From: a virus
Reading direction: 5' to 3' (one strand)
IMG/VR virus record: IMGVR_UViG_3300021185_001399
Coordinates: 1-48,822 of that record
Length of the DNA: 48,822 nt
Shown: positions 6,321 through 44,700 of the stretch, in pieces
How the letters are laid out: every line of letters starts with the position of its first letter
Numbering within the stretch: position 1 is the first letter of the stretch
Notes under the pieces: generated by a model
Databases searched by the model: none
What the model was told of the DNA's origin: nothing
The model's input: only the letters and a program-made list of their open reading frames with translations
Made by a program: the position numbers and the translations under genes

Positions 6321-6326
6321 AACTGT

Positions 6327-6893: not shown

Positions 6894-6898
6894 AAAAC

Positions 6899-7573: not shown

Positions 7574-7583
7574 AATTATAACA

Positions 7584-8528: not shown

Positions 8529-8542
8529 AGAAGTAATATATT

Positions 8543-19053: not shown

Positions 19054-21642
19054 GTGGATTTAAACAAAAAAAGTGTAAAACAGCAAGGAGGAGCAATGAT
19101 ACCTCAACAACCAGGTATGCAACAACAACCTATGGGAATGCAACAGCAACCTCAAGTTGATCCTCAAGTTATGCAGATAACTGAGGTTTTTTCTCAGTCA
19201 ATGAATCAAGGACAGCAACCACAAGAGATAGTAATGAACTTGATGGCACAAGATGTTGATCAAAACCTTATAGGTCAAGCACTTATGACTATGGGTTATG
19301 AACAAGATATGGTGTTAGAATTATTTAAACAAATAGAGCAGTCTCAAAGACAACAAGAACCTAGCCCTCAAGAAATAACAAACAACCCACAACAATTAGC
19401 AAGGGCAGAATCAATGCAAGAAGATGCACCAGCTATGGATATGAATATTGATCCAATCAATATGGCCAAGTCAGGTATTGAAATAGATCCTAAAAATGAA
19501 GGTAAGTTTACAGCATGGGCTAAATCACGTGGTATGACTGTTAAGCAAGCTTATAACAAAGTTATGTCAAATACTAAAGCTTATCCACCAAGTGTAGTTA
19601 AGATGGCTAATTTTGCTAAGAATGCTGCTGGATGGAAGAAGGAAGAAGGTGGTGAATTTGAGCCACACTTTATGTATAAAGGTGATAGAAAGATCAGAGC
19701 AAGAGATCATGAAGCACATCTTAGACTAAAGAAAGCAGGATATACTCATGATGCACCTAAAGCACAAGATGGTGGAGAAGGTATTTATGATACACCTGTA
19801 TCTAATAGAACGCCTGGTTCTTATATAAAAGAAATGAATGTGGGTGGTTATGTCCCAATTGGTTTTAACCCTGATCCCCAAGCACAATCTAAATTAGAAC
19901 AAAAGTTTGCCAATGATCCAACAGTAAATCAGTTATCTGATTTTATAAATATAGCTTCTAAATCTAATAAAAATAAAGTTATACAAAATAAAGATAATGG
20001 TTATTTAGCGCCTAACCCAATGTATTTAAATCCTGCAGCTTTTGGAGATCAAAGCATTAATATAAATGATATAATAAATACTACTGCAAGTGTAGCTAGT
20101 GATTTCTTTGGTGAAGATGGTGCTATTAGTAACTTTAAGCAAAACAGGGTTGATGATAAATTAACTAAGTTAAAAAATTCAGAGTATAAGATTAAATTTG
20201 ATGTAACTGAAGAAAATCAAAAAGCCTTTGATGATTATGTTACACAATGGAAATATGAAAACCCTGAAAAAGATATATTAGGAAATCTTGTTCAAGAGTC
20301 AGAAAAAATAGCAAATGAAATTTCTACAGAAAACATTGATGTTAATGATCCTGAAATTAAGAAGTTTCTTAATATGAATATAGATAATTTGTCTGAGAAA
20401 GGTAAGCAGTTATATGAAAATTTAAAAGGTAAGTTTTTTCCTAATGGTGAATCTAAAAGATATGGTGGTTCTAATTTACCAAAAGCACAGTTCAATATTC
20501 CAGATTTTATGTATGGTAAACAAGAATCTGAATTTGATTTGACTGGAGGAGGATTTAATCCTTATACAGATGATTTAGCAGATTTTATGAAAAATGCTGG
20601 TCAAACAAATTATATGCAAGATACTGAGTTAGTAAAGAGAGCAGCTATTGATGATGGGACATATGGTAATAGAACAGAAGAGTCAGAACAATCAAATAGT
20701 AATTTTCTTGATGAAGATGGTGACGGTATACCTGATTACATAGATATAGATGGAGGTGATGGTACAGGGGAAGGAACACCAGGTACAGCAGGAAGCCCAT
20801 CTGCAGATGAATTAAGAAGTAGGATAAATAAACCTACAGTTAAAAGAAAAAGAGATCCTTTGTTTGCTATGGAAGATTTTCCTAATACTGCAATGGGTCA
20901 ACTTTATAGTAAAGGATCAAATGCAGTTTATCAAGGTTTTAGAATTTCCAATGATATTAAAGAAGCAAAAAGTAATAAACAAGCAGAAAAAGATTTAAAA
21001 ACTGTAGATACTATAGCTGATAATACTTTTGGTGTTATGTATGATATGAATTTCAAACGTGGTAAGGGAGAGCTAGTGAATCCAGGTGGATTTGGTAGTG
21101 AAGGAGATAGAACTACAGGCCTATATATGAATGTTGCTAAAGAAGGTGGTGGAGTTAATAATGAAGGGTTTAAAGCACTTCCTGATTATGTACAACACAA
21201 TATACTTAAGAATATGCAAATAGGTGGTGGTACCGCAGTTGTTGATACAGCTGCAATACTATCAGGTTTACCGAAAGATTTTATGGAATCAAAAATGGGA
21301 CAGCAACTTTTGGGAATTCAACCAAACACTGCAACAAATCTTATGGATATTTATGATCAAGCTAAAAATATTTCTAGTGTAGGAGAAGGTTTAGATTTCT
21401 TTACAGGTGTTAAAAAGAAAGATCTTAAAGCATTAATGCAAGAAGCAGGGATAGATAAACAACAAGTAAGAGACTATGTTTATGATCAAGATTTTTATGA
21501 TGATGCTAGTTGGGCTACTCAACAAGGTATAAAACTAGCAATGAAAACTAAAGGTTTGAAACAAGGTGGAGAAACTCTAGAAGTAGATTCAAGAATGTTA
21601 GCAAAGTTAATTGCAGCCGGAGCTGATATAGAAAAATTATAA
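19054..21642 (+). CDS. Putative cargo/ejection protein, Gln-rich N-terminus
   Basis: 862 aa from GTG 19054. An ATG at 19096 (848 aa) is an alternative: AAGGAGGAG lies just before it, but no neighbouring gene uses a Shine-Dalgarno sequence, so that may be chance coding of QQGGAM. Residues about 15-110 are Gln/Met/Pro-rich low complexity. Later come KFTAWAKSRGMTVKQAYNKV, a helical middle, and an Asp/Gly-rich stretch DEDGDGIPDYIDIDGGDG near 552-569, which resembles a calcium-binding dockerin/thrombospondin type 3 loop. Short motifs AKSG (138), AQDGG (237), KAQF (478) and KQGG (837) recur. No enzymatic domain is recognised. Position between the lysin and the virion polymerase gene suggests a capsid cargo protein. 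It ends 2 bases before the next ATG. Confidence 0.65.
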   Translation: MDLNKKSVKQQGGAMIPQQPGMQQQPMGMQQQPQVDPQVMQITEVFSQSMNQGQQPQEIVMNLMAQDVDQNLIGQALMTMGYEQDMVLELFKQIEQSQRQQEPSPQEITNNPQQLARAESMQEDAPAMDMNIDPINMAKSGIEIDPKNEGKFTAWAKSRGMTVKQAYNKVMSNTKAYPPSVVKMANFAKNAAGWKKEEGGEFEPHFMYKGDRKIRARDHEAHLRLKKAGYTHDAPKAQDGGEGIYDTPVSNRTPGSYIKEMNVGGYVPIGFNPDPQAQSKLEQKFANDPTVNQLSDFINIASKSNKNKVIQNKDNGYLAPNPMYLNPAAFGDQSININDIINTTASVASDFFGEDGAISNFKQNRVDDKLTKLKNSEYKIKFDVTEENQKAFDDYVTQWKYENPEKDILGNLVQESEKIANEISTENIDVNDPEIKKFLNMNIDNLSEKGKQLYENLKGKFFPNGESKRYGGSNLPKAQFNIPDFMYGKQESEFDLTGGGFNPYTDDLADFMKNAGQTNYMQDTELVKRAAIDDGTYGNRTEESEQSNSNFLDEDGDGIPDYIDIDGGDGTGEGTPGTAGSPSADELRSRINKPTVKRKRDPLFAMEDFPNTAMGQLYSKGSNAVYQGFRISNDIKEAKSNKQAEKDLKTVDTIADNTFGVMYDMNFKRGKGELVNPGGFGSEGDRTTGLYMNVAKEGGGVNNEGFKALPDYVQHNILKNMQIGGGTAVVDTAAILSGLPKDFMESKMGQQLLGIQPNTATNLMDIYDQAKNISSVGEGLDFFTGVKKKDLKALMQEAGIDKQQVRDYVYDQDFYDDASWATQQGIKLAMKTKGLKQGGETLEVDSRMLAKLIAAGADIEKL

Positions 21643-24638: not shown

Positions 24639-24647
24639 ACTTAAAGG

Positions 24648-24671
24648 GTTTATACAAAACACTTTGTAAAC
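24648..24671. repeat. Imperfect inverted repeat before 1094-aa gene
   Basis: GTTTA-TA-CAAA-ACAC-TTTG-TAAAC: nine pairs with a two-base bulge and a four-base loop. It lies 10 bases after the 997-aa stop and overlaps the recurrent AT element, so it may be a regulator site or an mRNA end hairpin. There is no T-run, so classical termination is unlikely. Confidence 0.45.
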
Positions 24672-24681
24672 TTATATAATT
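24663..24681 (+). promoter_or_regulatory. Recurrent AT element upstream of 1094-aa gene (copy 4)
   Basis: TTTGTAAACTTATATAATT, most like the copy at 6303. It is 35 bases before the ATG at 24698 in a 59-base gap. The first bases form the right arm of the inverted repeat at 24648-24671. Confidence 0.4.
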
Positions 24682-24697
24682 ATATTAATTTTACATT

Positions 24698-27982: not shown

Positions 27983-27993
27983 AGCATAAGTAA

Positions 27994-30900
27994 ATGGAAA
28001 ACGAATCTAAAACACCATTACAACAACTTAATAGAGAAGCTGAAAGACCTGCCCCAAGTGTAATACCTGATGGGCAGTTCCGTTTTGAACCTATTGAAGA
28101 ATTATTTGAAACTCCAGAAGAGAATTTTAATAATTATGCTATGAGCGGTGATTTAGCAGCTGATGATATATCAGGTGTTAATGAATACACAGCAGCAATA
28201 GATAAGTATGGTGTGGGTGCTATGGCAAGTTTAGGTATAGCTGATCCCGGTCCTGCTACTGATACATATAATCCTGTTACTCAAAGCAGACCTGATAATA
28301 CTGAGAACACCTTTTCAATGACGAAGAGGTTATTGACTTTAAATGATACACCTGTATCAGAAAAAAAAGTTGCCCCTGCATTTACAGGAATGAGGCAAAC
28401 TCAGTTTATGAGATATTTTGAACATCCTGAGTTTGATAAGTTAGGATATTCTCCATATTCTAATATGGAAAGTTTTTATAATGCAAATTCTACAATTTAT
28501 GATGACTTTTCCAGAATGAGAGGTAATTGGTGGTCATTAGTTGGTACAGGATTAAGTTCTGTATATGGATCTATGTTTAGTGGTTCTGATTATCTTGAGC
28601 CAGATCTTGACTCAGCTACAGCTTTTGAAGACAAGATGGGTATAATGAATTCTACCAGAGGAGGTTTTGGTGGGTTTATGAATAACCTAGCAGCTAACTC
28701 TGCATATACAGGAGGTATACTTATATCTATTGCTGCAGAAGAGCTAGTGTTAGCAGGTGTTACAGCACTTTCAGGAGGTACAGCAGCACCAGTTACTATA
28801 GTTAAGACAGGTGCAAACGTTGTTAAAGGTGTTAAAGGCTTTTTTAGTTTCACAAAAATGTACGAACGTACAAGAGATATATTAAAGCAAGCTAAAGCAA
28901 TTGAAAATGCTAGAGATTTCTGGGTTGCTGCTAAAGGCGGTGAAAGATTAAAAGCTGCAGGAAATTTACTTGGTAGAGGTTTTACACCTAATACAGTAAA
29001 AGCATTTAGAGATATTAAGACTGCAAAAAATGCTGGTCAAAATATGAGTAATCTTGCTAAGATGAATGCAAAGTTTGGTGGTTTTTATAGAGATATGAGA
29101 GCTGTTAATTTAGCTATGGCTGAGAGCAAGTTAGAAGCTGGTATGGCATATAATCAAGTACTTAAAAATGGTATGAATAACTACGCTGCTGCTAATGGTG
29201 GTCAGGGTGTTGATGAATATGAGATGGCTAGAATAAATAATGCTGCTGATCAAGCTGCATTTAAAACAATGATGGCCAATGCACCAATAATATATGCAAG
29301 TAACTGGTTAGTTCTTGGCAATGCATTAGGTGGTTTCCAAAGAGGTATTCAGCGTACAATAGGTTCAGCATTTGGTAAAGGGATTGCTAAAAATGTAATA
29401 AATACAGCAGGTAAAAAAGTAGTTGATGCTGCGGGTAAAGTAATTAAAAACCCTTTTAAATATTTAGGAGGAAAAGAAAAAGGTTTCTTAGGTCTTAAAA
29501 GACTAGGTGCAAAAATTAAAGCTGCGGGTGGATGGAAAAGTGTTGCTGGTAGTGGTGGTATAGTTATGTTAGATTACTTTGCAGCTAATGTTGCTGAAGG
29601 TATTCAAGAGGTTTCTCAAGAAGCAATATCTGCAGCTACTGTTGGTTATTATACAGAAATACTACAAAATCCAGCACAAGGTGGTGTTGCATTACAGAAT
29701 CAAATGATACTATCTGCAATGGGTGATCAGTTTTCTGGTGAAGGATTTAATGTATTTATGTCTGGTTTTTTAATGGGTGGTCTTGTACAGCCTGTACAAA
29801 GAGCTTTTATGCAGGGTGTGCCTTCTATATATAAGTATGGATTGCAAGAAGCTGGTATTGGTTTAGCTACGGCAAAACAAAAAGAAACATTTGCTGAGTT
29901 TAGAAAAACAAGAGATGAAATGATTGAAAAAATTGTTGACTCTTATAATAAATCATGGAATGAGCAAGCTATAGATCCATCAGAGTTGTTTGATGTCAAC
30001 AGATTGAATTTTATGATTCAAAAGGAAATGGCTGAAAAAATGAAGAAGTCTGCTTATCAACAAGATTTCTTTGGATTTAAAGATGCTGAAGATGCAGCTA
30101 AGTTTCAACAGTTTTTTACAATGTTTGAAACAAATGGAACAAGACACTTTAGAGATCAGTTATTAGGTTTCTTAGATATGACTGATACTGAATTAGCTGA
30201 TGCATTCCCTGGTGTTAGTAATAAAGATAAAAAGGATGGCAAGTTAAGAAAGCGTATAAATGAAACCATTATCCAAATGGATAAGATGGAAGAAAATTAT
30301 AATAAGCTTAAAGATAAATATGTAAATCCTTTTGATGAAAATAAATTCAACCGTAAGACACAAGAGAAAGAATATATAAATGAGTTAGTTGCAAGGGCTG
30401 GATATGATCATGCACGTTATTTATACATGTTTACTAATGAAAGTTTTATGTCTGCAGTTAGTAGAGCTGATGGGATATACTCAAAGCTTGAAGCAGAACC
30501 TTTGTTTGCAAAAATGGCTGCAAGTGATATTACTACTTTACTTGACCCAGAATCAATTGAGAGGGAGATTGTAATCCTTCAAGAAGAAATAGATGCATTT
30601 GAGGGAGCTAGTGTAAAAGGTGCGCCAACTGCATCATCACCAAAGCAAGAAAAAATTACAAGACTTAAAGCTATTCAAAAGATTGTTACTGATAAAAAGA
30701 ATAGATTTAAGAATGGTACATTTAAAAGAAACAAAGCATTAAAAGATAGCTTAAGAAATGAGTTTAAAAATTACGTAAGATTTTTGGCTAAAGAGCAAGG
30801 CTCATTTGTAAATGAAGATAACATTGATGCTGCACTAGTTGATATAGTTGATTACTATGCTTTAGATAATAGAGCAAAAGTATATGACAAAGCTATTGAG

Positions 30901-33900
30901 TTTATGAATAACCCTGAAAAGTTTGCTGAGATGGTAGAAAGATCTCAAGCATTATCTAAGAATAGACTAGAGGGAAGAGCAAAAGAAATGAAAGCAGCTC
31001 TAGAGAAATATACTGATATTACTTTAGCAAATCAACTAATAAATGATTTAGCTAAAGATCCAGTTGGTGCATATGCAGATGAAGCACAGATGGTACTTTT
31101 TTTACAGACAGGGAATGCAGACTTTCTTATAGACTTTTATGATGAAAACGGTAAAGTTGTTGAGGGTGTTCATGATATAAAATTTAAAATGATACAGTCT
31201 CTGATAAATGTTTATAAATCTACAAAAACAGATCAGACTAGTGAAGAAGAAATAACTCAAGAAGAAAAGGATGAAGCAAAAAGACAAGATGTTGATGAGC
31301 AGAAATCCGATTTAGATGTAATGCTTGAGAATGCAGGTATTAAATTAACTGTTGATACAATAACTATAAGTCCTTATCTTGATGAGGTACTGAGGAGATC
31401 TTATAGAAGTTATAAATCAAGAATGGCTGCAGCAGGTAAAACAAGTTTATCTGTACAAGAGTGGAAAAACTCTGCTGAAGCGCAGGAGCTAAAGAATGTA
31501 TTTAATGCTATAAAGCAAGTATGGGCTGCAGGTACAATGACAAAAAATGCAGCTGGTGAAACTGTATATACAAGCCCTATAGAGCAATCACTTGTTGATT
31601 CTGACACAGGGTTTCAAGACTTTTTATCTACACCCAAACAAGAATTACTAGCAGAAAACCCACTAATTACTTCTATATTAAATCAAACAACTGTTAAGTT
31701 AGATGATATATATGAGCAGCCTGATGTTGCTGATAATATTGAGGTTACTGAAAAACCTTTAAAGGAAGGTGTTATAGCAGACTTATATAAAAGAGTAGTA
31801 AAAGTTCCTGGACAGGAGCCTATAACTATTTATGAGTTGCTAGATAAAAAAGGAAACAAGTTAAGTTCAGATTTATTAGATTTTGTTGATCAACAATTTG
31901 AATCAACAAGAGGTACGTTTAATGAAAATGCTGCTGCTACAGCTTATGATGCTTTGTCTGCTCTTGATGATCAAGCTCCTGATTCAACAACTTTTGAGTT
32001 TGATGGTGTTAGTGGTTTGTTTTATGGAATGTCTATTTACAAAGGAAGTGAGAAGTATATTATAATTCAAAAACCCAACAGCTCAAAGAAATTTGGTAAA
32101 AATCAAAAGCTTAGAGTAATTAAAGAATCTAATAATGTTGGGCCTATATCAACAAGAAAATTTGAATATATAAAACAAGGAGAGTTTAAGAATGTTTTTT
32201 CTGTTGAAGAAATAACAATGGATGTATTAGATGACTCAGTTAGTAAGTTAGACATTCAATCATTATTGTCTCCTTATGCACATGCAAATAGATCTGACAA
32301 GAAAGGTTTATCAGATGAGCAAATAGCACAAGCTTTAACATATGAAAATGCCGAAGGCAAAGAAAGACTTAAAGCTATACTAAAAGAGTTGACACCAGCT
32401 GAAAGAGAACAGTTAGAGTTTGTTGTATATAGAAATCCAAATCCACAGACTGTAAAAGAGTATTCTGTTCAGAATATGTCTGGTTATCAATATAAAAGCT
32501 CAAACCCATTAATTAAAAGATATAGTAGTGAATATGTTGTGGGTATTAGAATTAATAATACTGTAACACAAGATAGGATAAATCAAAAACTATTAGAAAA
32601 GAAAATACAACCTTCTGATTCACCAGATGGAATATTTGCATATATGAACAATGCTTCATTTTTAATTAAAGATCAACTAACAGGAGCTAATGTAGATCCT
32701 AGATCAATGAATCTAAGACAAGCTCAGAATGTAATGTATACTCCATTTGGTAAAAGTATAACTACCGAAGAACAGTTAAAAGAAATTCAAAAAGCATTTA
32801 CATTAAACTCTATGCTTACTACAACATTTAATAATCTTGGAGTAGCAGAAGAGAAACAATACTTTAGTATAAAAGATCTACCTTTTAATATAAAGCTTGA
32901 TTCAAAAGGAGGAAGGATTGTATATAGTAAAGGTAACCCTGTTTATATGCCTGCATTAGATTATCAATATGCAGATGAAAATAATAACTACTTTATATTT
33001 GATTTAAAGTATGATAAAAAACAAGGTGGTAGAATATTTAACTATACCACATCTGCTACTGATGAAGTTGATTTAAAGAATAAAGTACTAAATCAATTAG
33101 AAAAACAAGGAATTACTAGAGATAGTTTGCTAGCAGGAACAGATAGATATCTTGCTGCAGTTAAGCTACCAAATGGTACTTATGCTTTAGTTAATCTTAA
33201 AGCAGTGACATATACAAAAGAAGAAAAAGAAGCTCTTTTTGTAGAGATTGTTGATAAAGCTAAAGAAATTCAAGCAATAAAAGATGATCTCAAAAGAAAT
33301 GCTGCGGCTGTTAAATACAATGAAGAATTATCAGATAAATTATTTTTAAGTAGTTATCCTGGAAATCTTCTTGATTTAAAAGTTGGGCAAGATGGAAGTA
33401 TATTTATTCAATTGGATCAACAAAAAGGAGAAGAGATAGTCAATATAGAATCTGTAAGCATTGACTTTCCTGTTGTTAATTCAGATACAAGTGCCGTTAA
33501 AATAATAGAAAGTTTAATTACTAAGTATAATAAATTAGAAAAAGTTGCTGCAAATAATGCACAAGTAAGAGACAAAAATATAAGAAAGTCTTTTGCATCA
33601 GGTGCCCCTGCTCAAGATATAGTAGATAAGAGTACAACTGAAGTTGGAATTGAAGTAGTAACAGACAACTCATTAGTTCTTTCTGCTGAGTCAGATGCAA
33701 TACTAGCACAACAAGCTGTGGCATTTGCAAGTGTTAGACCTAAGAATGAGGATAAGAGAATTGAAGAAGAAGTAGCACTACCTGAGATATCTGAAGAGTC
33801 TGATGACAGTGTTCTTGATATGTCAGAGGAAGAATTAATATCTAGAATTGATAATGATTTTCAAGGTCATCCTGTAGGCATTGAGCATATAATAAATAAA

Positions 33901-36900
33901 ATGCTTAGAGGAGAGCCTCTAAATGAAGCAGAAGAAAAAATGATGAATAACCCTGTTATTTCTAATGGGGTTAATTTACGTGTTGCTGCTGCAGGTGGCA
34001 TAGGAAGTCTTAAACCACAAGAAAAAACAAAGGAGACAACACTAGATAAAGAAAAAGCTAAACTTAAAGAACTAAAAGCTACACTAACAGAAGGATTAAA
34101 AGGTGCAGCTAAAATTGATGCATTAGATGAAAGCAAAGAATATCAAAAACAACTTGCAATAGTTAAAAAACTTTCTAAGACAGCAAACAAATTAGTTGAA
34201 GCAACTACTGAAGTAGAGAGAATAGAAGACTACAATGAGTTTTTAGATTGGGCAAATGAATCATTACCATCTATAATAGGTATAGAAGATGTACTTACTC
34301 TAGCAGATAATGGCATAACTAAAGGTTATAAAAGAGTTGGTGCTTTTGTTTTAGATATACATAAGATAGCAGGAGGGGTAAGTGTAAACGGTACTGTATA
34401 TGTTGGTGCTAATAATCCTTTTAAATATCATGAAGCATTTCATGGTGTCTTTAGAATGCTACTTACACAAGAACAAATAGATAGATATAGAAAACTTGGT
34501 AAGTCAGAATTAAAAAGCAAGTATGGTTCAAAGTATAAAGCTGAATTAGAAAAATTTAGAACAACCGCAAAACAATATGAAGATCTTTCTGATATTGAAT
34601 TAGAGAATGAGTTTATAGAAGAATACTTGGCTGATGAGTTTGAAGCATTTAAAAAGGACCCAAGAAGTACTAAGACTAACACAGAGATTAAATCATTCTT
34701 TACTAAGATAATTGAGTGGATTAAAGGTGTGTTATCTAAGTATACCCCTAATGAATTACAAACATTGTATGAAAATATTGATGCTGGTAAATTTAAAAGT
34801 GCAACTGTACAATTAAATGAATTCACATCAGATGCTGGAATTACTGTTGCAAATGCATTGGTAAGACACGATGTGGTATCTAAAGATGAGAATGTATCAG
34901 GGTTTTTATATGTTGATTCAATGGTAATTGATCCATTAATTAGATCAATGGCCGGTATGTTTATAACTAGAGTTAATAACTTAGAAGAAGAAAGCTATAA
35001 CCCTGAAGATGTTTATAAGAGTATTGCACGTGACTTTAGAATTTTACTTGATCCAGAAGATGCTAGCAATAAAATTTTAGGAGCAGGAAAAATAAAACAA
35101 CTTGAAGAATTAGAGGATGCATTTACTAATTACCCTGAAGATATAAAGAAAGAGGTTTTTGGTTTAATTAATATAATATCAGATCAAGATAATGAGAGTG
35201 AATTTAAATCAGAAGCAGAAGAAGATTCAACTGGATTAAGAAAAGCAGATGAATTTGACAAAGATGCATCTGAGATAGGAGGGTTTAATTCATTAACTAA
35301 AAAGGTGAGGTCTTACATTGCTACTTCAACAATGAAAGATGTAGACTTTTTTGGTAAGACAGAATTAACGGAAGGAGAACCATTAATTGTTCCTGTTAAA
35401 TTTAATGAAGCATATAATGGTTTACTAAAAGCTGTATCTAATATAAGTGATCAGGCTGTTATGCTTAGACGTATGTATTCATACTCTAGGTTAAATCCTA
35501 ATATGGCAGCAGTAGTTGACAAATTATTTAATGATGCAAATCTAGATATAAAGTCTTTGTCTTCTGAATCACCTTTTATAAATGTTACCAATGCTAGTCT
35601 ATTGCAGTCAATAGTTAAAGGTTTTGAAAACTATAAAGTAGATTATATATTTAATGAAAGAGATGGTGCAGGAAACATATTAATATACACTGCCTCAGAA
35701 CGTGATGATATTAACTCACAATTAGATGAGTGGTCACAAGCTTATATAACTAAGAGGAAAGAAATGAATTTAGATGAGTCTGGTCAAAAAATTGATGACT
35801 TGCTTGACTTAGTTAAAAACATGTCTCTTGTTTTAGGTGACAAAACCAAATACTTAACTAGTGAAAAGAGTGATGAGAAAGCTAGAGAGCATTCTCAAAA
35901 ATTATTTGATCTAACAGGTATAAGGTTAAGTCCAATGTATTTAAACTATAGTTACATTAAGACTTTTGATTATGCTAAATTAGATCCAGAGCAAAAAATA
36001 TTATATAACGCTTACTCTATTGAGCCTATATCTGAGCAGTTTTTAGTAACTCTATATGATCTTATGTATAGAGATGATAATATTTTCTCTAAGAAATCAG
36101 ATGGTATGGCATCTAGACTTACTTATATAAGTTTAAATAATGCAATCTTTGATGAATCAATTGGTGCATCATCATTTATTAATCCAAATGGTGATTTAGT
36201 TTATGGTCATCAACTTCCAACTTATCATTTAAAAGCAATATCTGCATTAAATAATCCAAAAAAAATAGATCAACTATCAAATGATGAATATCTAAGCAAT
36301 AATTATTTATTAAATAATGAGGCATTTAGAAATTTATCATCTCAAGGTAGAATAAAAGTAACTAGAATTGCGGGTAGCAAAATTAAATCTATTGTTACAA
36401 CAGATCTTAATGATAGCGTTGCAGAAGATATATTAAATACATCTTTAGAAGATAGTAAGTCTACACAAAGCTTTGGGGAGTTTACACCAAAAGAGTTTGC
36501 TGTATCATTAATTAATAATTATGTATCTAATTTTAACAGAAGAACAGGTAAAGTAGATTCAGTAGAAGGTGTTGGAAAGCTACCTATAGCAACAGCACCT
36601 GTATTTTTAAGAGTAATGGAAGCAGCTAATACTGGAGACTTAACAAGTTTGCCTGTAATAAAAGCTGTAACTATGAAAGGTGAAAACGTTGAGCTTACTC
36701 CTCAACTAGTAAATGCGTTTATAGATAGAATAGCTTCAGAGTTTGAAAGGATAAATAGAGAAGCTATTGCTTTTGGTGAGCTTGGTGGTGATATTCAAGG
36801 ATATAATGACTCCATGCAAGGTAGAGCATTTAGTTTTGCAAACACAGGATTATTGTTAGATCCTATTACTCAACAAACACTAGCTAATGTAGCTATTAAT

Positions 36901-39900
36901 GCAGGTAAGCAAAAACAAGTAATGACTTTTGATCAAGGTGTTAAGCTAGCTATAGGTGTGTCAAGATCAACTATAAAAAATGAAGTTACTTCAAGTTTGA
37001 ATGGAGCATTTGAAGAGTTTAATGAATTAATTACAAAACTAAAAGTAAAAGATAATTTATCAACTCAAGTTAGACAAGGATTGACTATAGGTCAAGGAGT
37101 TGCTAGAACTATGGTTGATTTAGCTGGTAGTCAATTAAACTTAAACACCAATGAATCTCATAACCTACAACAGATATTTTTTAATAACTGGATTAACTCA
37201 GCTTCTATTAATGACCTTTTACTAGGTGATCAAGCAATGACACTGCAAAGTATGGTTGATAAAGTTAAAAGAGCTAAGTTAAATAATGCCGCATACTATA
37301 GTGCATACAGTGTATTGTCTGCACCTGAACTTGGAATAAATCATGCAAGTACAAACTTTGATATGTTTGTATTTGATGAAATAACAGAGCAATCATCTTT
37401 AACAGGTAATGATATTGATAGTGCAGATGCACAAGCATATATTACAACTAAAGGATCAAGGTATGCTACATTTGGTTTTGGTAGGTTAAGTCCTTCTATG
37501 GCTAGCATGTATGATACACTTGACATTGGACAAGCACCAAACAGTGATGCTATATTTGGAACTGAAGACAAACCTATAGGTCTTGCAAAAAAACAAGAAC
37601 TTATAAATTCTAAAAAGTATGTTTACATGGATGGTAAAACAGCAGTTAAAATGTCTGTTACTGTCTTAACAAAAGAGTATACATCTAATTATAATGCTGA
37701 GTTAGGTAAGTGGGAACCTAAACCAACTAAAGAGCAGCTTCATTATTTACGTGAGCAAATGGAAGCCAATGAGGAAGCCAATAAAAACTTTGCTATGGCT
37801 GCCCCATTATCAGCTGTAAAGATGATGAAGAATACTGTAAACAAATTAAATGATGACTCAAGCGGTTTTGATTTAAGTCAGAATTTAAAATCTACTAAAT
37901 TAAGTACAGAGTACTTGGGGCTTCAAGTTATTCAGCCATCCAATAAGATGGAAATTACTGACATGACTCAGATTAAGGATATAATTACATCTGAACAAGA
38001 TGATACAGTTAAAATACCTGGACTGGGTTTAAATGAAAAAGGTGAAACAATGAACGTTGGTGATGTTAGAAGATTATATAATGCTGCAACATCACAAAGA
38101 GTAATATTAAAATATAAAAATAAAAGAAACCTAGTATTTACTTTTGATACAGCACTAGATGAATTTAAATTATCTAAAAAGAAAGGTGCTATAACACCTA
38201 ATCTTGGAGCATTTTTAGACTATGCACAAAATTCTTTAAAGGCATCTGGCTCAGCATCAAATTTATTAGAGTTTTTTACATCAGATAAAAATGAACAAAA
38301 GTTTAATCTTAATAATCCTTTTACAGCTAAGAAGTATGAACAACTATTTCTTTCATATTTTAGTAAAGGTACATTAAGAGAAAAAGTTCCTGGTACAGCG
38401 CTAGCTTTAGTATCATCTTTTGGTACTAGATATTATAGAAAAGTATATGAAGTTAAAAATGGTATACCTGTAAGATCTGAAATATTAAGAGAAAGTCAAT
38501 ACAAAGGAGACTTTGCAGATAGAGTTCCAGGAGATGGTGTTTATCCAGAAGGTATAGTTATTCTAGATGTTTTAAGAACAGGGCTAATGGGTTATACTAA
38601 TCCTGCTGATGCATCTACTAAAACTGGTGAAAGATATAGTGAAGTTGTTATGCCGGCAATGGATAAGAATGTAATGGATTTAATTGCTAATACAGATGCT
38701 AAAATTCCTGATGCTATATCTAAGATGTTTGGTGTACGTATACCAACTCAAGATAAACACTCTGCTGTAAACATAAAGATTGTAGATTTTCTACCTGCTT
38801 ATTATGGCTCTTCTGCTATATTTCCTAAAGAAATAGTTGAAGTATCAGGTGCAGATTTTGATATAGATAAAGTATATGCAAAAATTAAAGAATATTATTT
38901 AGATGATAATAATAATTTTATAGAGTTTGGTCAAGGTGATCCATATACAGAGTATGTTAAAAATATAAATAACCTAACAGCTAAACCAGATACAGTTTAT
39001 AATAAAGCTGCATCAATGTTTAATAATGATCAGCTTGCTATTAGAATGGATAATGCTTTATCACCGCAAGAAATGAATAGATTGACTGATCAAGAAGGTG
39101 AGAATAAATTTAATGAAGATTCTTTAAGAGCTGCTTTAATGCTTGGCTTACCAGCAACAAAAAAACAGTTTACTGACTATGTTGAAAAGCATGGCAACCC
39201 TAATGAGGCAGTATTAAATAATAAAATTTTAGATTATAATTATGCACTTGCTGGTAATGAAGGTATGACAGGCACAGAGTTACTTCAACAAGATCTTAAA
39301 AAAGATTTACCTATTGCATATCAAGCGGCAGATATAGAAGTATTAAAGACTGCATTTAATAACCTTGTAGCTAATCCAGACATACAACTTTTTAAGGATA
39401 GACAAGATTCTCCTGTTGATGTAGACTCACTGACTGGTATGATTAAATCTTTTGAAGCAAACAAAGGAGCAGCTATTGGTGCTGTAGTATTACCTAACGT
39501 ATATCTTAATTTATTAACTGAATACAATATTGATCTATTTAAACCTTTTAAACTAGGCAATGTTCCCTATAATGGTTTTGGAGGCAAGATTATAAACGGT
39601 GAAAGAAAGCAAGATATAATTTCTTCTTTAGTTACAATGGAAACAGATAACGCTAAAGAAAGGTTCATATCTAAGTTAGGATTAAATATACATGCTGTAG
39701 GTATGGCTGCTAATATGATTTCATTGGGTATACCTTTAGAAACAACATTGCTTTTATTAAACTCTGCTGAAGTTAGAGATTTATATGACTTATCTCAGAA
39801 CAAAGTTGATAATACATCTCCAAATTTAAAAATGTTACTTGATAGTAGAATAGCATCTCTAAAAGCAAAAGTAACAGAAGAAAAAAATAAAAATGGAAAA

Positions 39901-41766
39901 GTAAAGTTTGCCCAAGTAAATAAAGATTTACTAGTAAAAGCTGTAGATAGTACTAAGGATTTAAGTGATAATGAGAGATTACAAATCTTATATGCTTTTA
40001 GTAGGTTAAACAAAATAAAAAACTGGACTGCAAAAATGAGACCCGCAGTTGTGTTATCACAAGGGTTGCCTCAAAATGTTCCAACTACTAAGAAGAACAT
40101 TAAAGACTTACAAGAGCTGTTTGGAAAAGATGCTCAAGCTGATGTTACTTCAATTTTTAAAAGCAAAACATGGCAAAGTACTAACCTTAAAGTCTTTAGT
40201 CAGATTTACCAAGATTTATTACCAAATGTTCTTTTAACAATGTCTCCAGAGTTTGCAGAAATATTAAGTCCGGTTAATGATAATCTAGATATTGATAATA
40301 ATAAATTTGGATTTGATACTGCAGCAAAGGTAGAACAAGATTTACTTTCTTACTTAACAATAAAGAGCTATAAACATTTGCTAAACAATAGTTCTAGCAA
40401 TGCAGCACCGGTTACAAATAATTTAATTTATCCTGGTCCAATAAATGAAGCAGACTTATCTATTGTTAAAATGATAAGAGATGAAAAAACAAGAAGGTCA
40501 GAGAACAATGAAGAAAGTAATTTCTTTTTAGATTCATTTGTAGGAACTGAGTATGCAACAGACAATGGAAATACTACAGGATTAAACATAGCTACTTCAA
40601 ATACTTGGAGAAGATTAAATGCAGCAAACTTGATTGACCTTCAAACCTCCTTTGCAAAATTATATGGTGGATTGGAAACAAGAGATTTAGCAATATCTAT
40701 TCTTCATTATATGATGGTTAAAGACGGCTTGCAATTAAAGTATGGTTCTTTATTAAAAGCAATGAGTCCTTTTGTTATGGAAAAGTATCTTAATAATGTA
40801 AATACAGTTGAACTAGCATTAAAAGGAATTATACCTTATGAGAAAGCATTTGGTATAACAAAAGAAGAACTTATAAAAGAATTTAAAGAGGGTTACCTAG
40901 AATCTAATCCAACAGGACCTATACTACGCAACTATAAGACAAGCGATGTTGAGTATCTTCCTGTTGAAGAAGTAGTCTATATCAAAGATGAAATGGAAGA
41001 CAATGGTAAAATGATTGATTACTTTAGATTAGACCTTAGTGATGCTATGTCTAAAACATATAAACTCTTTAAACGTGATGAGGAAGCAGATGTTGTAGAT
41101 GGAAAAGTTGTATATAGATTAGTTCCATCAATGGGATCTAACCAGCAATTTGCTGCCGGTTTTGTAGGTGGTCCAAGATTAACATATATTCAGACAAGAA
41201 ATATTAATAGTAATACTCCAGTTAATGATGTTATTAGATCAGAACAACCAATACAACAAACTGATGAAGCTGGTGCAAGCGTTGGTGTTAGTGCTGTAGA
41301 AACACAACAAAAACAAGATATATTAAGAACTCCAGGTGCAATTATTGAAGTTACAAATAACAGTGTAGAGGTAAAAGAAAATGATGAACAAGCTAATACT
41401 AATATAGCAGACACAGCAAAAGCACTTGAAGCCTTGTCAGATTTGACAGCAAGTGGTACCTTTGATGAAGTAGCTAATGCTGAAATGGAGAATAACTCAC
41501 AGACCTTAGATACTAGGACTGAAGAACAACAAAGTCAAGAAAACCAATTAAAGCTAGATTTAGCTGAGTCAGAAGAAATGAGTGAGGTTGTAAGTCTTGA
41601 GAAATGGTGGTCTGATAATGTTGCTGGTAATACAGAAGCAGAAAAGAAAATGAGTGAACAAGGTATAAACTCTTTGCAAGATGCTATGTTTGCATATGGA
41701 GATTTGTTTTCACAAACAGAGCTTGGAGAACAAGAACTAATAGATAGACTTAAATGTTTACTATAA
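27994..41766 (+). CDS. Giant virion RNA polymerase fusion (membrane-active N-terminus, zincin protease, RNAP)
   Basis: 4590 aa. About 240-275 and 523-610 are Gly/Ala-rich hydrophobic helices (YTGGILISIAAEELVLAGVT; MSGFLMGGLVQPVQRAF) that could insert into membranes. About 620-1300 is charged helix. H2146-E-A-F-H2150 is a zincin HExxH site, with a candidate third ligand in ENEFIEEY (2204-2211). Around 3580-3630 the segment RIPTQDKHSAVNIKIVDFLP ... GADFDIDKVYAKI carries D3621-F-D3623-I-D3625, the DFDID signature of crAss-like virion RNA polymerase (phi14:2 gp66 type), equivalent to DFDGD of cellular RNAP. The C-terminal 250 residues are Glu/Gln/Asn-rich. The stand-alone phi14:2 enzyme is about 2180 aa, so this is roughly twice as long. 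It should be packaged, injected and used for early transcription; protease and membrane roles are inferred. Confidence 0.85.
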   Translation: MENESKTPLQQLNREAERPAPSVIPDGQFRFEPIEELFETPEENFNNYAMSGDLAADDISGVNEYTAAIDKYGVGAMASLGIADPGPATDTYNPVTQSRPDNTENTFSMTKRLLTLNDTPVSEKKVAPAFTGMRQTQFMRYFEHPEFDKLGYSPYSNMESFYNANSTIYDDFSRMRGNWWSLVGTGLSSVYGSMFSGSDYLEPDLDSATAFEDKMGIMNSTRGGFGGFMNNLAANSAYTGGILISIAAEELVLAGVTALSGGTAAPVTIVKTGANVVKGVKGFFSFTKMYERTRDILKQAKAIENARDFWVAAKGGERLKAAGNLLGRGFTPNTVKAFRDIKTAKNAGQNMSNLAKMNAKFGGFYRDMRAVNLAMAESKLEAGMAYNQVLKNGMNNYAAANGGQGVDEYEMARINNAADQAAFKTMMANAPIIYASNWLVLGNALGGFQRGIQRTIGSAFGKGIAKNVINTAGKKVVDAAGKVIKNPFKYLGGKEKGFLGLKRLGAKIKAAGGWKSVAGSGGIVMLDYFAANVAEGIQEVSQEAISAATVGYYTEILQNPAQGGVALQNQMILSAMGDQFSGEGFNVFMSGFLMGGLVQPVQRAFMQGVPSIYKYGLQEAGIGLATAKQKETFAEFRKTRDEMIEKIVDSYNKSWNEQAIDPSELFDVNRLNFMIQKEMAEKMKKSAYQQDFFGFKDAEDAAKFQQFFTMFETNGTRHFRDQLLGFLDMTDTELADAFPGVSNKDKKDGKLRKRINETIIQMDKMEENYNKLKDKYVNPFDENKFNRKTQEKEYINELVARAGYDHARYLYMFTNESFMSAVSRADGIYSKLEAEPLFAKMAASDITTLLDPESIEREIVILQEEIDAFEGASVKGAPTASSPKQEKITRLKAIQKIVTDKKNRFKNGTFKRNKALKDSLRNEFKNYVRFLAKEQGSFVNEDNIDAALVDIVDYYALDNRAKVYDKAIEFMNNPEKFAEMVERSQALSKNRLEGRAKEMKAALEKYTDITLANQLINDLAKDPVGAYADEAQMVLFLQTGNADFLIDFYDENGKVVEGVHDIKFKMIQSLINVYKSTKTDQTSEEEITQEEKDEAKRQDVDEQKSDLDVMLENAGIKLTVDTITISPYLDEVLRRSYRSYKSRMAAAGKTSLSVQEWKNSAEAQELKNVFNAIKQVWAAGTMTKNAAGETVYTSPIEQSLVDSDTGFQDFLSTPKQELLAENPLITSILNQTTVKLDDIYEQPDVADNIEVTEKPLKEGVIADLYKRVVKVPGQEPITIYELLDKKGNKLSSDLLDFVDQQFESTRGTFNENAAATAYDALSALDDQAPDSTTFEFDGVSGLFYGMSIYKGSEKYIIIQKPNSSKKFGKNQKLRVIKESNNVGPISTRKFEYIKQGEFKNVFSVEEITMDVLDDSVSKLDIQSLLSPYAHANRSDKKGLSDEQIAQALTYENAEGKERLKAILKELTPAEREQLEFVVYRNPNPQTVKEYSVQNMSGYQYKSSNPLIKRYSSEYVVGIRINNTVTQDRINQKLLEKKIQPSDSPDGIFAYMNNASFLIKDQLTGANVDPRSMNLRQAQNVMYTPFGKSITTEEQLKEIQKAFTLNSMLTTTFNNLGVAEEKQYFSIKDLPFNIKLDSKGGRIVYSKGNPVYMPALDYQYADENNNYFIFDLKYDKKQGGRIFNYTTSATDEVDLKNKVLNQLEKQGITRDSLLAGTDRYLAAVKLPNGTYALVNLKAVTYTKEEKEALFVEIVDKAKEIQAIKDDLKRNAAAVKYNEELSDKLFLSSYPGNLLDLKVGQDGSIFIQLDQQKGEEIVNIESVSIDFPVVNSDTSAVKIIESLITKYNKLEKVAANNAQVRDKNIRKSFASGAPAQDIVDKSTTEVGIEVVTDNSLVLSAESDAILAQQAVAFASVRPKNEDKRIEEEVALPEISEESDDSVLDMSEEELISRIDNDFQGHPVGIEHIINKMLRGEPLNEAEEKMMNNPVISNGVNLRVAAAGGIGSLKPQEKTKETTLDKEKAKLKELKATLTEGLKGAAKIDALDESKEYQKQLAIVKKLSKTANKLVEATTEVERIEDYNEFLDWANESLPSIIGIEDVLTLADNGITKGYKRVGAFVLDIHKIAGGVSVNGTVYVGANNPFKYHEAFHGVFRMLLTQEQIDRYRKLGKSELKSKYGSKYKAELEKFRTTAKQYEDLSDIELENEFIEEYLADEFEAFKKDPRSTKTNTEIKSFFTKIIEWIKGVLSKYTPNELQTLYENIDAGKFKSATVQLNEFTSDAGITVANALVRHDVVSKDENVSGFLYVDSMVIDPLIRSMAGMFITRVNNLEEESYNPEDVYKSIARDFRILLDPEDASNKILGAGKIKQLEELEDAFTNYPEDIKKEVFGLINIISDQDNESEFKSEAEEDSTGLRKADEFDKDASEIGGFNSLTKKVRSYIATSTMKDVDFFGKTELTEGEPLIVPVKFNEAYNGLLKAVSNISDQAVMLRRMYSYSRLNPNMAAVVDKLFNDANLDIKSLSSESPFINVTNASLLQSIVKGFENYKVDYIFNERDGAGNILIYTASERDDINSQLDEWSQAYITKRKEMNLDESGQKIDDLLDLVKNMSLVLGDKTKYLTSEKSDEKAREHSQKLFDLTGIRLSPMYLNYSYIKTFDYAKLDPEQKILYNAYSIEPISEQFLVTLYDLMYRDDNIFSKKSDGMASRLTYISLNNAIFDESIGASSFINPNGDLVYGHQLPTYHLKAISALNNPKKIDQLSNDEYLSNNYLLNNEAFRNLSSQGRIKVTRIAGSKIKSIVTTDLNDSVAEDILNTSLEDSKSTQSFGEFTPKEFAVSLINNYVSNFNRRTGKVDSVEGVGKLPIATAPVFLRVMEAANTGDLTSLPVIKAVTMKGENVELTPQLVNAFIDRIASEFERINREAIAFGELGGDIQGYNDSMQGRAFSFANTGLLLDPITQQTLANVAINAGKQKQVMTFDQGVKLAIGVSRSTIKNEVTSSLNGAFEEFNELITKLKVKDNLSTQVRQGLTIGQGVARTMVDLAGSQLNLNTNESHNLQQIFFNNWINSASINDLLLGDQAMTLQSMVDKVKRAKLNNAAYYSAYSVLSAPELGINHASTNFDMFVFDEITEQSSLTGNDIDSADAQAYITTKGSRYATFGFGRLSPSMASMYDTLDIGQAPNSDAIFGTEDKPIGLAKKQELINSKKYVYMDGKTAVKMSVTVLTKEYTSNYNAELGKWEPKPTKEQLHYLREQMEANEEANKNFAMAAPLSAVKMMKNTVNKLNDDSSGFDLSQNLKSTKLSTEYLGLQVIQPSNKMEITDMTQIKDIITSEQDDTVKIPGLGLNEKGETMNVGDVRRLYNAATSQRVILKYKNKRNLVFTFDTALDEFKLSKKKGAITPNLGAFLDYAQNSLKASGSASNLLEFFTSDKNEQKFNLNNPFTAKKYEQLFLSYFSKGTLREKVPGTALALVSSFGTRYYRKVYEVKNGIPVRSEILRESQYKGDFADRVPGDGVYPEGIVILDVLRTGLMGYTNPADASTKTGERYSEVVMPAMDKNVMDLIANTDAKIPDAISKMFGVRIPTQDKHSAVNIKIVDFLPAYYGSSAIFPKEIVEVSGADFDIDKVYAKIKEYYLDDNNNFIEFGQGDPYTEYVKNINNLTAKPDTVYNKAASMFNNDQLAIRMDNALSPQEMNRLTDQEGENKFNEDSLRAALMLGLPATKKQFTDYVEKHGNPNEAVLNNKILDYNYALAGNEGMTGTELLQQDLKKDLPIAYQAADIEVLKTAFNNLVANPDIQLFKDRQDSPVDVDSLTGMIKSFEANKGAAIGAVVLPNVYLNLLTEYNIDLFKPFKLGNVPYNGFGGKIINGERKQDIISSLVTMETDNAKERFISKLGLNIHAVGMAANMISLGIPLETTLLLLNSAEVRDLYDLSQNKVDNTSPNLKMLLDSRIASLKAKVTEEKNKNGKVKFAQVNKDLLVKAVDSTKDLSDNERLQILYAFSRLNKIKNWTAKMRPAVVLSQGLPQNVPTTKKNIKDLQELFGKDAQADVTSIFKSKTWQSTNLKVFSQIYQDLLPNVLLTMSPEFAEILSPVNDNLDIDNNKFGFDTAAKVEQDLLSYLTIKSYKHLLNNSSSNAAPVTNNLIYPGPINEADLSIVKMIRDEKTRRSENNEESNFFLDSFVGTEYATDNGNTTGLNIATSNTWRRLNAANLIDLQTSFAKLYGGLETRDLAISILHYMMVKDGLQLKYGSLLKAMSPFVMEKYLNNVNTVELALKGIIPYEKAFGITKEELIKEFKEGYLESNPTGPILRNYKTSDVEYLPVEEVVYIKDEMEDNGKMIDYFRLDLSDAMSKTYKLFKRDEEADVVDGKVVYRLVPSMGSNQQFAAGFVGGPRLTYIQTRNINSNTPVNDVIRSEQPIQQTDEAGASVGVSAVETQQKQDILRTPGAIIEVTNNSVEVKENDEQANTNIADTAKALEALSDLTASGTFDEVANAEMENNSQTLDTRTEEQQSQENQLKLDLAESEEMSEVVSLEKWWSDNVAGNTEAEKKMSEQGINSLQDAMFAYGDLFSQTELGEQELIDRLKCLL

Positions 41767-41780: not shown

Positions 41781-44700
41781 ATGGCTAAATGTTATAATAG
41801 AAATGATCCGGGATATCAAGCATTAAAAGATGTTTATAAGTCTGATTTACGTACTTCTCAAGTTATTAGTAATTGGCAAGAAGTAAATGAATCTGATATT
41901 TTTCCAAGTCCTGTTCAAGCTAAAGCAATGGTTTCTGATCAAAAGATTGCATTTAGTTTACAACAAAAAGATTTTGGTAAAGCTGTGCTTGATAATATAA
42001 GAAGGGAAAAAATTGGAAGCAGGTTGGCGGGACAGTTTCTTATAAACAATTCTAATCCTGATACCTTACTATATGATGAGTCTTTTTTGCAAAATAATTT
42101 AAAAAGATTTTATAGGTATTTAGAAATTAATAATATACCTGAGTCAGCTTTTAGTGTAACCAGAACAAAACAAAGCTATAAAATAGAAGCAATTGATAGT
42201 GTATTTACTAGAAGAGATTTATTAGAAAAATCAAGATCATGGGATACAAATAGATCAAGAGCTGTAGTGATGCATTTAAAAAGAATGTTTCCACAGGTTA
42301 ATGTAAAAATGATATCAGTTGCACAAGCTAGAGTATTATTAGAAAGCTTACCAAAGTACAATACCAAAGATATAGGATTTAAAAATGTTAAGTCTTTTTA
42401 TTATAATGGAGTAGCATACTTAATTAAAGGTAGGGTTACTGATGAAATAGCAATTGAAGAAATGTTGCATCCTTTTATAGATGCAGTAAAAATGGAAAAT
42501 GAACAACTGTTTAATAATTTATTAGATGAAGCAGTAACTAATTTTCCTGAACTATCTGAGCAAATTAAAGATGCATACAATAATCAATCTAGAAATTTTA
42601 GTGAAACTGAAAGAGACCTAGAAATTGTAACGCAAGCTTTAGCCAGACACTTCAAAAAAGAATATGAAAGCAAACCAACAAAAGGTTTCTTAAATGCAAT
42701 TGGTGAATTATTAGAGTGGTTTAAAAGTGTTATAGAGAACTTAAGCATTTATCTGACAGGTAAACCTTTACCTGTGTCAGCTATAGTAGCTAGTACATCT
42801 ATGAGTGATATTGCAAAACTGCTAAATACAGAAGGTATACAATTTAAGTTAGAGAAAAGGGTAAATGGAAATGTAAGGTATAGCTTATCAAAAGAAAAAG
42901 CATCTGAATTAAAAGCAATAAGAGCTAAAGCAAACCCTCTTCAAAGACCAATAGTAGATCAAATATTTAATTTAGCTCAGCTTTACGATGAACAAGTGCA
43001 TCAGTTTTCTGCTTCTGAAAAAAATGCTGCTGCTGGTGATACACTGGTAATATTAAATGAAGAAGATCATGTATACTATAATCCAAATAAAACTAAGGAT
43101 GTATATACATCAGCTACAACAGCTATCAAAGGAGTATTATCTCCAACTAAAGTAGTTGAACACAGGCTGAATCTTGAAATTGGTAATGAGGTAGATACTT
43201 TATTAGAAGGGGTTATTGGAAATTTAAAATTTAATGCTGCATATAAAAACCTAAAGACTAATAATATATCTAAGGAAAAAGCAAAAGAAGTATATGATAC
43301 ATTAGATTCTATAATAGAAAACTACCGTGAGACAGGATCACTTATTTTATCACAAGTAGTATTGTTTGATGAAGAATCAAAAATAGCAGGTATGGCTGAT
43401 ATTTTTATTATTGATGCAAAGGGTAAGGTTAGAATTTTTGACTTAAAGACAAGCAAGAATAACCTAGATGATGTAAATGATGATGGTATTAAAAAATATA
43501 ATTTTCCATATTCATTAGGTAATGACAGTAAACTGATAGAACACGGTGTAACTAAGTTGTCTACAAGAGCACAACATAATCTACAAGTAGCTTTATACAG
43601 AAGAATGACTGAGAATATGGGCTATGAAGTTGCATATGATGAGTTTGCTATGGCAACCATACACTTCCATGTAGGTGTTGATGGAAAAGGTGTTGATCAA
43701 GTATTTAATGGTGAAATAAATTATGATAGAATTGAGCCACATCCAATAAGCACACAGTTAGATAAAGTAAACAAATTAATACCTATATCAAGAAATTCTG
43801 CTAAGAAAGATTCTTTGTCCAAAAAACAACGTGATGCATACAATGCAAGGTGGGATGGTAAAAATGAAAAGACAGAAACAACAGAGCAAGATAAAAAGGA
43901 TGCAGAAGGCTATACAGAATATAATATTCATGCTGGTCTACTAGAAGACTATATGGGTAAACTAATTGCTAAGAGAGATCTTATACCTTTAGTAAAGAAT
44001 AGTATTTACATTCAGTCTACACAGCAGAAAGAGATTGATCAGATATCAAAGACCATTGCATATATTGCAATTGCATTGTCTGAAGATGCCGGAAAACAAT
44101 CAGTTGTTTTATCTGAAGTATTACAGGATGCATTACAACAAATAAAAGAATTTAGGGCATATATGGAAGACCCTAACAACATTGATAAGCCTGAGTATTT
44201 ATCATATGCATTACACTTTGAAAAATATCTAGAAACATTTAAAGGTCTATATGAGTTAACAGATTTAATTGGTTTAAATAATACACAGAAAAATTTAATT
44301 TTATCATTACAAACTCAGCTTAATGCACTAAGTGGGTCTAAATCAAACAGAGGTATTGTTGACAATGCGTTATATGATTACGTTCAAGAGCAAGTAAGAC
44401 AAAAGTCCAGTAATAATTATGGTGGTGAAGGAAGTTACTTTACTAAAGAGGATCTTGATTTGGTCATGGAATTTGCTGCAGATATTGATGGAGTAGAGTA
44501 TCAGACTAGAGACATGGATACATCTGGAGATGTTTTACTTGGTGTCATGGCTAAAATTAGAAAGATACAAACACAAAAATTATTAGATAAGGTATCACAA
44601 AGAGAAAGTATAATTAGAGCTGCAGGGCAAAAACTAGTTAAACTTAATCCTGGTATAGATTTAAAGGATCTTTATAATTTTATGCTTGAGTTTGTAGAAA

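Follow-up and report, generated by a model that had tools for sequence, protein, structure and literature searches.

The giant gene and its parts

The DNA analysed here, hereafter the window, is a stretch of 48,822 nucleotides that makes up positions 1 to 48,822 of the virus record IMGVR_UViG_3300021185_001399 in IMG/VR. On its plus strand, at positions 27994..41766, lies a single uninterrupted open reading frame (ORF) with one stop codon, encoding a protein of 4590 amino acids (aa). Judged by its ORF, motifs and homologues, this giant is a fusion of two known crassvirus cargo proteins, one like gp47 of phiCrAss001 and the other like gp50 of that phage and gp66 of phi14:2. The chain begins with a gp47-like region recognized by hhalign (residues 1-2040; 27994..34113), within which hydropathy marks a possible membrane segment (residues 238-275; 28705..28818). 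It continues with a zincin-like domain (residues 2041-2300; 34114..34893; hhalign, conserved residues and a PDB profile match), a region between zincin and polymerase core (residues 2301-2999; 34894..36990; profile and hhalign comparison) and a predicted two-barrel RNA polymerase core (residues 3000-4190; 36991..40563; profile, model, fold match and hhalign). A C-terminal region, defined by conservation across representatives, closes the chain (residues 4191-4590; 40564..41763); beyond residue ~4300 it is among the least conserved parts of the protein and carries insertions in relatives.

The zincin-like domain holds HEAFH (residues 2146-2150; 34429-34443), the only HExxH in the protein, and then Glu2209 and Glu2210 (34618-34623), with Asp2214 downstream of them. 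The polymerase core holds DFDID (residues 3621-3625; 38854-38868), the only DxDxD. The frame and both motif positions had been given in a first-pass annotation made from the sequence by itself, and all of them are exact. By chance, a protein of equal composition would be expected to contain 0.008 HExxH, 0.06 DFDxD and as many as 1.4 DxDxD motifs, so that DxDxD on its own is weakly informative.

When the same bases were shuffled 200 times, the longest run without a stop was 139 codons. A scan of viral contigs returned 10 loci on 9 contigs at 74-100% identity, the full protein being spanned in five of the ten. Two loci (L001 and L008) come from opposite ends of a single 115,836-base contig, where the window's protein is split at 100% identity; the split suggests that this 115,836-base genome is circular. 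Closed frames of 4491-5515 aa were collected in 65 cases, the window included and several of the contigs being near-identical. Together, the 10 viral loci and the 65 closed frames exclude an assembly accident as the source of the frame. Searched as a whole against Pfam, NCBIfam and PHROGs, the 4590-aa protein matched no family (one PHROG, E 0.39). Modular duplication within the gene was also considered and ruled out, as its direct repeats form 12 families that are all short and mostly 65-79% alike.

The polymerase half

By sequence profile and predicted structure, the C-terminal half of the giant belongs with the two-barrel RNA polymerases phi14:2 gp66 and phiCrAss001 gp50. A tblastn search with residues 1803-4590 matched 101 phage records, mostly of uncultured or Bacteroides crAss-like phages; 8 of the 20 matches listed carry an annotation as RNA polymerase or polymerase subunit, including phi14:2 g066, and the remainder are labelled hypothetical, structural or otherwise. 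Residues 2270-4590 as a single sequence found no match in the PDB, and profiles alone gave matches there. The profile of residues 3000-4190, built from 30 sequences, recovered the phi14:2 RNA polymerase (6vr4) at E 2.7e-19, with the next PDB matches at E 0.71 and 0.84, and hhalign paired the polymerase region with gp66 at 99.5%. An AlphaFold2 model of residues 3000-4190 (pLDDT 79.7, pTM 0.79) had 6vr4 as its sole Foldseek match below 0.001 (E 2.4e-30). VIA-align aligned 878 residues of the model with 6vr4 (Z 20.4, rmsd 3.6), covering gp66 residues 801-1867. Among other folds, QDE-1 reached Z 16.6 over model residues 92-1081, plant RDR2 at most 16.1, P23-45 gp96 9.7 and cellular polymerases about 7 or less. 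Two barrels are described for gp66 in the available part of PMC7886860, and the 6vr4 and QDE-1 fold matches, rather than a tracing of each barrel singly, point to two double-psi beta barrels in one chain here. The first-pass annotation had named a crAss-like RNA polymerase, to be given up if no such barrels were predicted near residue 3621. Sequence profiles, profile against profile comparison and the structural model all back the polymerase, and as far as these fold matches tell the refuting case did not arise.

DFDID belongs to a conserved block, RIP...HS ... GADFDID, which we take to resemble the beta' motif NRAPTLHR ... NADFDGD. The motif is present in 40 of 41 full-length representatives. 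In the remaining giant (L079), DHDGD replaces it at about residue 3600; this is still a DxDxD, and the block that flanks it is less conserved. Homology would predict that the polymerase half carries out DNA-dependent transcription. Residues 2301-2999 are about as long as the gp66 N-terminal part, with homology near the end only: a profile of residues 2300-4400 matches gp66 687-1006, and residues 2300-3000 by themselves gave nothing above 20% in hhalign.

The zincin-like domain

The domain that precedes the polymerase half aligns in hhalign with residues 2101-2295 of phiCrAss001 gp47 (97.5%, E 6e-12) and with cr128_1 (96.8%). With residues 1-2269, tblastn matched 2 records, both of cr128_1, at E 0.05 over the HEAFH region; the gene concerned encodes 2387 aa and is annotated 'putative RNA-polymerase subunit'. 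HEAFH stands at residue 2146 in cr128_1, at 1719 in the cr85_1 counterpart and at 2157 of 2341 in phiCrAss001 gp47. Among 79 loci fetched through their polymerase motif (described below), 74 hold the zincin region, and H2146, E2147, H2150, E2209 and E2210 are retained in every one of the 74. An alignment of 56 sequences distinct at 90%, with a median pairwise identity of 38%, has invariant residues in 10 of 251 columns, and these include the same H, E, H, E and E; Asp2214 is retained in 54 of the 56. Gluzincins carry an HExxH followed by an E-x-x-x-D helix, and EExxxD is conserved here 59-60 residues after HEAFH. The zinc-binding Glu would be one of the downstream pair.

Over the active site, the best PDB profile match was a zincin, Pro-Pro endopeptidase 6fpc. 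Its E value was 0.0034 with 30 diverse sequences and the domain alone, 0.034 with 9 diverse sequences, and 0.6 with a longer alignment of 30 sequences; in the domain-only profile it was followed by a ribosomal protein (E 0.69) and FtsH protease (E 1.2). With HExxH and EExxxD both conserved and a zincin as best profile match, the zincin protease of the first-pass annotation is supported at the level of sequence, and the domain is probably an active zinc peptidase. It is very improbable that HExxH arose by chance in a helical region that is no zincin. The structural model of the region is weak, and the region matches no Pfam family above cut-off and no NCBIfam family, all of which would suit such an accident; set against it are the 0.008 occurrences expected, the EExxxD conserved at its distance of 59-60 residues, the match to 6fpc over the active site and a GenBank record for cr110_1 that names a protein upstream of the polymerase as 'fused to zincin protease'.

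The N-terminal half and the membrane question

On profile comparison, the N-terminal half that ends in the zincin-like domain is homologous to the crassvirus gp47-type protein, which in phiCrAss001 is a virion 'RNA-polymerase subunit' of its own. In hhalign, residues 1-1100 matched a Leptolyngbya phage protein of 1552 aa (97.6%), a csAssE-Sib protein of 2208 aa (96.2%) and cr128_1 gp51 (95.4%), and residues 1100-2040 had the Leptolyngbya protein as sole match, at 50%. Nothing above 20% was obtained with three muzzle proteins that served as controls, or with three phi4:1 proteins, a Leptolyngbya protein of 2748 aa, an FPSV protein of 1596 aa and a csAssE-Sib protein of 1885 aa.

Two hydrophobic helices, at residues 240-275 and 523-610, had been noted in this half. 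Averaged over 19 residues, hydropathy peaks at 1.84 at residue 241 and is at least 1.6 there in 21 of 41 representatives, with an acidic pair inside the stretch in 7 of the 9 representatives listed. The second stretch peaks at 1.14 and attains 1.6 in none of the 41; hydropathy thus upholds the first as a hydrophobic stretch and leaves the second without support as a membrane helix. For comparison, the polymerase core has a stretch that peaks at 1.47, and phi14:2 gp67 and cr128_1 gp51 reach 1.72 and 1.56 by this measure. Residues 224-278 of the N4 polymerase are reported to enter membranes in the available text of a preprint (PMC12633501), and the peak over residues 200-300 of that protein is just 1.29, so hydropathy is not decisive for either stretch. 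A membrane role for residues 238-275 is plausible but unproven.

Spread of the fusion

Relatives were gathered in two sets. For loci L020-L099 the main search pattern was [KV]YHEAFH, which puts HEAFH in them by construction; for L100-L178 the search used G[AS]DFDID or the RIP block, so that DFDID is there nearly by construction. Because the motif used for fetching is present by design, each motif was counted in the set fetched by the other. The zincin-fetched set is the best 80 of 164 relatives, and the polymerase-fetched set comprises 79 loci from the best 80 of at least 455; several contigs are common to both sets, some of them near-identical. Cut and frame-broken loci were by choice left out of the 65 closed frames and the 41 representatives.

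An HExxH lies upstream in the same frame in 72 of the 79 polymerase-fetched loci, 1200-2300 residues away in 71 and, owing to an insertion, 2715 residues away in L143. The others either reach the contig end before any HExxH (L120, L122, L137, L165), have a frame break between the motifs (L112, L151) or possess an unrelated N-terminal half (L119). Conversely, the catalytic polymerase motif is in frame in 74 of the 80 zincin-fetched loci (73 by pattern, plus L079); here four are cut off (L065, L082, L085, L093), and in two, L039 and L070, the frame is broken. A single contig underlies both L070 and L112; the breaks in it, in L151 and in L039 fall between zincin and polymerase motif and may be sequencing errors or real. 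Across the 41 representatives, the distances of N part, zincin and polymerase correlate strongly (Mantel r 0.91-0.95; the maximum of 999 permutations was 0.26), and the three are therefore inherited together. The fusion is the rule in a large environmental clade. Production of two proteins from the one frame, for instance by internal initiation with the joint mostly untranslated, is the least credible of the alternatives: other crassviruses do encode the two parts as separate genes, but separate products would have no need of the open joint that 72 of 79 loci in one set and 74 of 80 in the other retain.

Some members vary in architecture. At 5072-8602, L143 has an insertion of ~1180 aa between zincin side and polymerase core, in which no Pfam family was found at E 0.001. 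L119 (IMGVR_UViG_3300024221_000011) encodes, at 3653-13519, a polymerase core 76-80% identical to the clade and joined to an unrelated N-terminal part of ~1640 aa with DUF7831. The terminase on its contig is much closer to phi14:2 (E 3e-85) than the clade's, and L119 is either a recombinant phage or a chimeric assembly. DUF7831 (Pfam E 7e-36 and 9e-37) is found near the C-end of the giant in L036 (14469-15221) and in the N-half in L119 (6950-8812), and it seems to be an accessory domain that moves between giants.

Neighboring genes and placement of the clade

On homology and gene order, the window as a whole reads as a crass virion block. A homologue of the crass muzzle protein (8543..15058, plus strand) marks this block. 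An 862-aa protein (19054..21642, plus strand) resembles the cr128_1 gene at the gp45 position both in blastp (61 aa, 46%, E 2.6e-11) and in gene order, and two further large proteins lie between it and the giant. On the other side of the giant, 41781..47552 (plus strand) encodes a gp49-like RNA-polymerase-associated protein of 1923 aa, which blastp matches to a cr128_1 'putative RNA-polymerase subunit' at E 3.4e-28. Residues 473-612 of this protein match residues 1702-1836 of the cr128_1 gp47-type protein (E 5e-7), so the two may have a domain in common. The virion block also includes, at 15058-18993, a protein of 1311 aa with an endolysin-like stretch at residues ~680-795 (PHROG lysis families, E ~1e-5), possibly a tail lysozyme. 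A further gene within it, at 4945-6267, matches PHROG 704, DNA repair exonucleases, at E 1e-43; the phi14:2 virion block likewise holds a metallophosphatase gene (g075).

The clade is probably crass-related and undescribed. Both the terminase and the portal of phi14:2 have matches at 24-32% in 8 of the 9 contigs tested, among them the divergent contig of L119, and the 25 best matches of one clade member's terminase are crAss-like and Flavobacterium FPSV/FpV phages (25-27%). Terminase family PF17289 was found in none of the 9 contigs. Among genome contigs of bacteria and archaea, 13 stretches fit the search pattern, none of which is a relative, and no provirus was found. Leptolyngbya phage Lbo-JY46 (L014), to which a cyanobacterial host is assigned, carries between 12354 and 37808 a crass-type muzzle, a gp47-like N region and a gp49-like match. 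All three proteins are annotated hypothetical, and the gp49-like one, of 2748 aa, has HEFMH at 1177.

Proposed role of the giant chain

Mass spectrometry has detected gp47, gp49 and gp50 in phiCrAss001 virions (available portions of PMC10172136 and PMC6235969), and crassvirus cargo proteins are believed to leave through the tail in a partly unfolded state (PMC10172136, likewise in part). We consider it fairly probable that the gp47-like and gp50/gp66-like parts fused here act as a single ejected chain, possibly tethered to a membrane, and that the zincin is active with a main target other than the joint. The chain, of about half a megadalton as estimated from its length, would travel in the capsid, pass down the tail in an at least partly unfolded state and refold on arrival. 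Its N-terminal part would remain at or in the cell envelope, so that the polymerase, tethered to the entry site, could transcribe early genes of the entering genome. The zincin would act mainly on a host or phage protein met during entry, and fusion would ensure equal numbers and joint delivery of both parts. Ejection and early transcription would carry over from relatives; tethering and the zincin's target we only infer.

Several points weigh against this account. Packaging of the fusion in the virion, too, would be a property carried over from relatives. The model of residues 1700-2330 is poor, with a mean pLDDT of 66.9 and values below 50 for the strands preceding the HExxH helix, and the matches listed for this 631-residue model in fold searches include unrelated folds, helical or mixed, but no zincin. 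In hhalign, residues 1-1100 align with phiCrAss001 gp47 itself at only 51%, and neither phi14:2 gp67 nor the zincin-annotated protein of cr110_1 matches the zincin or N-terminal profiles above 20%. The hydrophobic stretch at residues 240-275 is borderline, given that a value of 1.74 is attained by the window's muzzle protein, which is not known to be a membrane protein, and that the gp47-type protein of cr85_1 peaks at only 0.72. L119 has the polymerase core without a gp47-like half; if its contig is real, the fusion is not obligatory.

The first-pass annotation had seen the giant as a polyprotein that may cut itself. The zincin would then cut near the joint (~2300-2400), in the capsid or after entry, and so free the polymerase. 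Its position, at the boundary between the gp47-like and polymerase parts, is suited to this, as is the retention of the active-site residues in 74 of 74 loci. Autoproteolysis in the head or the cell has also been proposed for the zincins of polyvalent proteins, including that of the N4 virion RNA polymerase (vRNAP), and P1 DdrB reportedly undergoes processing before it is packaged (both in the available text of PMC5512222). We nevertheless regard self-processing as unlikely, on indirect grounds. In phiCrAss001, cr128_1 and cr85_1, HEAFH sits on a protein that lacks the polymerase motif, and a zincin placed on phiCrAss001 gp47, apart from gp50, implies a job other than polymerase release. For the N4 vRNAP, with its HExxH domain, packaging in unprocessed form is reported (PMC5512222), and 'no evidence of degradation' is noted for the recombinant protein (PMC12633501), as far as the available parts of these sources go. 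Gel bands of 270 and >300 kDa are described for phiCrAss001 virions, and gp47 is counted among the high-molecular-weight proteins (PMC6235969, in part). In the 14 representatives viewed, out of 41, the joint showed no obvious common motif, an inspection that involved no systematic search for cut sites.

A zincin-like domain could also aid packaging or folding of the giant chain with no need for proteolysis. The region that includes the N4 HExxH domain is reported, in the same available text, to be required for encapsidation even though the protein is uncut (PMC5512222). This role is quite improbable for the present domain, whose H, E, H and two Glu make up five of just ten invariant columns among 251 and so point to catalysis. 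The single ejected chain with a zincin directed at another protein remains our preferred account.

Comparison with known systems

Better-known crAss-like phages make both parts as separate proteins, where the clade described here makes one giant protein. In phiCrAss001, gp47 and gp50 are homologous to the two parts, directly or via cr128_1 and phi14:2, with HEAFH near the end of gp47 and DFDVD in gp50, and a gp49-type protein is encoded nearby, as in the window; gp47 and gp50 are separate genes on opposite strands, in contrast to the one chain here. In phi14:2, gp66 (6vr4) is a two-barrel virion RNA polymerase comparable with residues 3000-4190; at ~2180 aa, it starts about where the polymerase half begins here, and its neighbour gp67 is without HExxH. 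In cr110_1 (Intestiviridae), a 'putative RNAP associated protein fused to zincin protease' is encoded directly upstream of a 4417-aa polymerase-containing gene, whose product matches the polymerase region here (hhalign 98.5%) and carries a gp49-like part. A link between zincin and crass polymerases is therefore already in public annotation in this GenBank record, although sameness of its zincin with ours cannot be claimed, since the zincin-annotated protein has no profile match above 20%.

Flavobacterium phage FPSV-S29 (L015) has the same gene order and, at 23971-37230, a 'structural protein' of 4419 aa that matches the polymerase region (hhalign 97.5%). Its sole HExxH lies at 4197, away from the zincin position, and no gp47-like half was detected; this phage thus pairs a named host and a giant polymerase with no HExxH at the zincin place. 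In Thermus phage P23-45, gp96 joins a two-barrel virion polymerase to a giant protein of the virion, a counterpart of the arrangement proposed here (fold match Z 9.7). The partner in that case is the tape measure protein, and the available text makes no mention of a zincin, no search having been aimed at one.

A keyword search of the literature, which did not cover earlier crAss-like annotation papers, found no description of the clade or the fusion. What is added here is the identification of the partner as a gp47-type zincin-like protein, the finding that fusion is the rule in the clade, and the parallel with N4. The N4 vRNAP (gp50) has an N-terminal domain that enters nanodiscs, a polymerase and a C1 domain with HExxH, and its passage through a narrow channel has been proposed to resemble beads on a string (available text of PMC12633501). 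N4-like polymerases are stated to be always, and elsewhere almost always, fused to a zincin (PMC5512222, in part). In N4 gp50, a membrane-associated part, a polymerase and an HExxH domain (HELVH at 2228) are joined in one chain, which is ejected according to these partial sources; the giant likewise unites a possible membrane part, a polymerase and an HExxH domain. The order differs: N4 has membrane part, polymerase and HExxH domain, as against membrane-like part, zincin and polymerase here. The N4 polymerase is T7-like rather than of the two-barrel fold, and hhalign comparison of five regions of the giant with four parts of N4 gp50 gave at most 0.8%. Within the reach of these tools, the likeness would be one of function and composition and not of descent, apparently convergent. 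The stronger claim that the giant is a second, independent machine with envelope part, zinc peptidase and polymerase in one chain, built on a two-barrel polymerase of the RNA-interference type in place of a T7-like one and with a zincin that acts on the chain after entry and frees or activates the polymerase in the cell, is in our view rather unlikely.

The comparison links two puzzles about virion proteins, namely how polymerases of several hundred kDa pass through a narrow tail and why zincin-like domains accompany them. The tests made show no relationship between N4-type and crass-type polymerases, and still each of them goes with an HExxH domain; in the giant this link is covalent and extends across a large environmental clade. 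A common need at entry for a peptidase beside the ejected polymerase thereby becomes testable.

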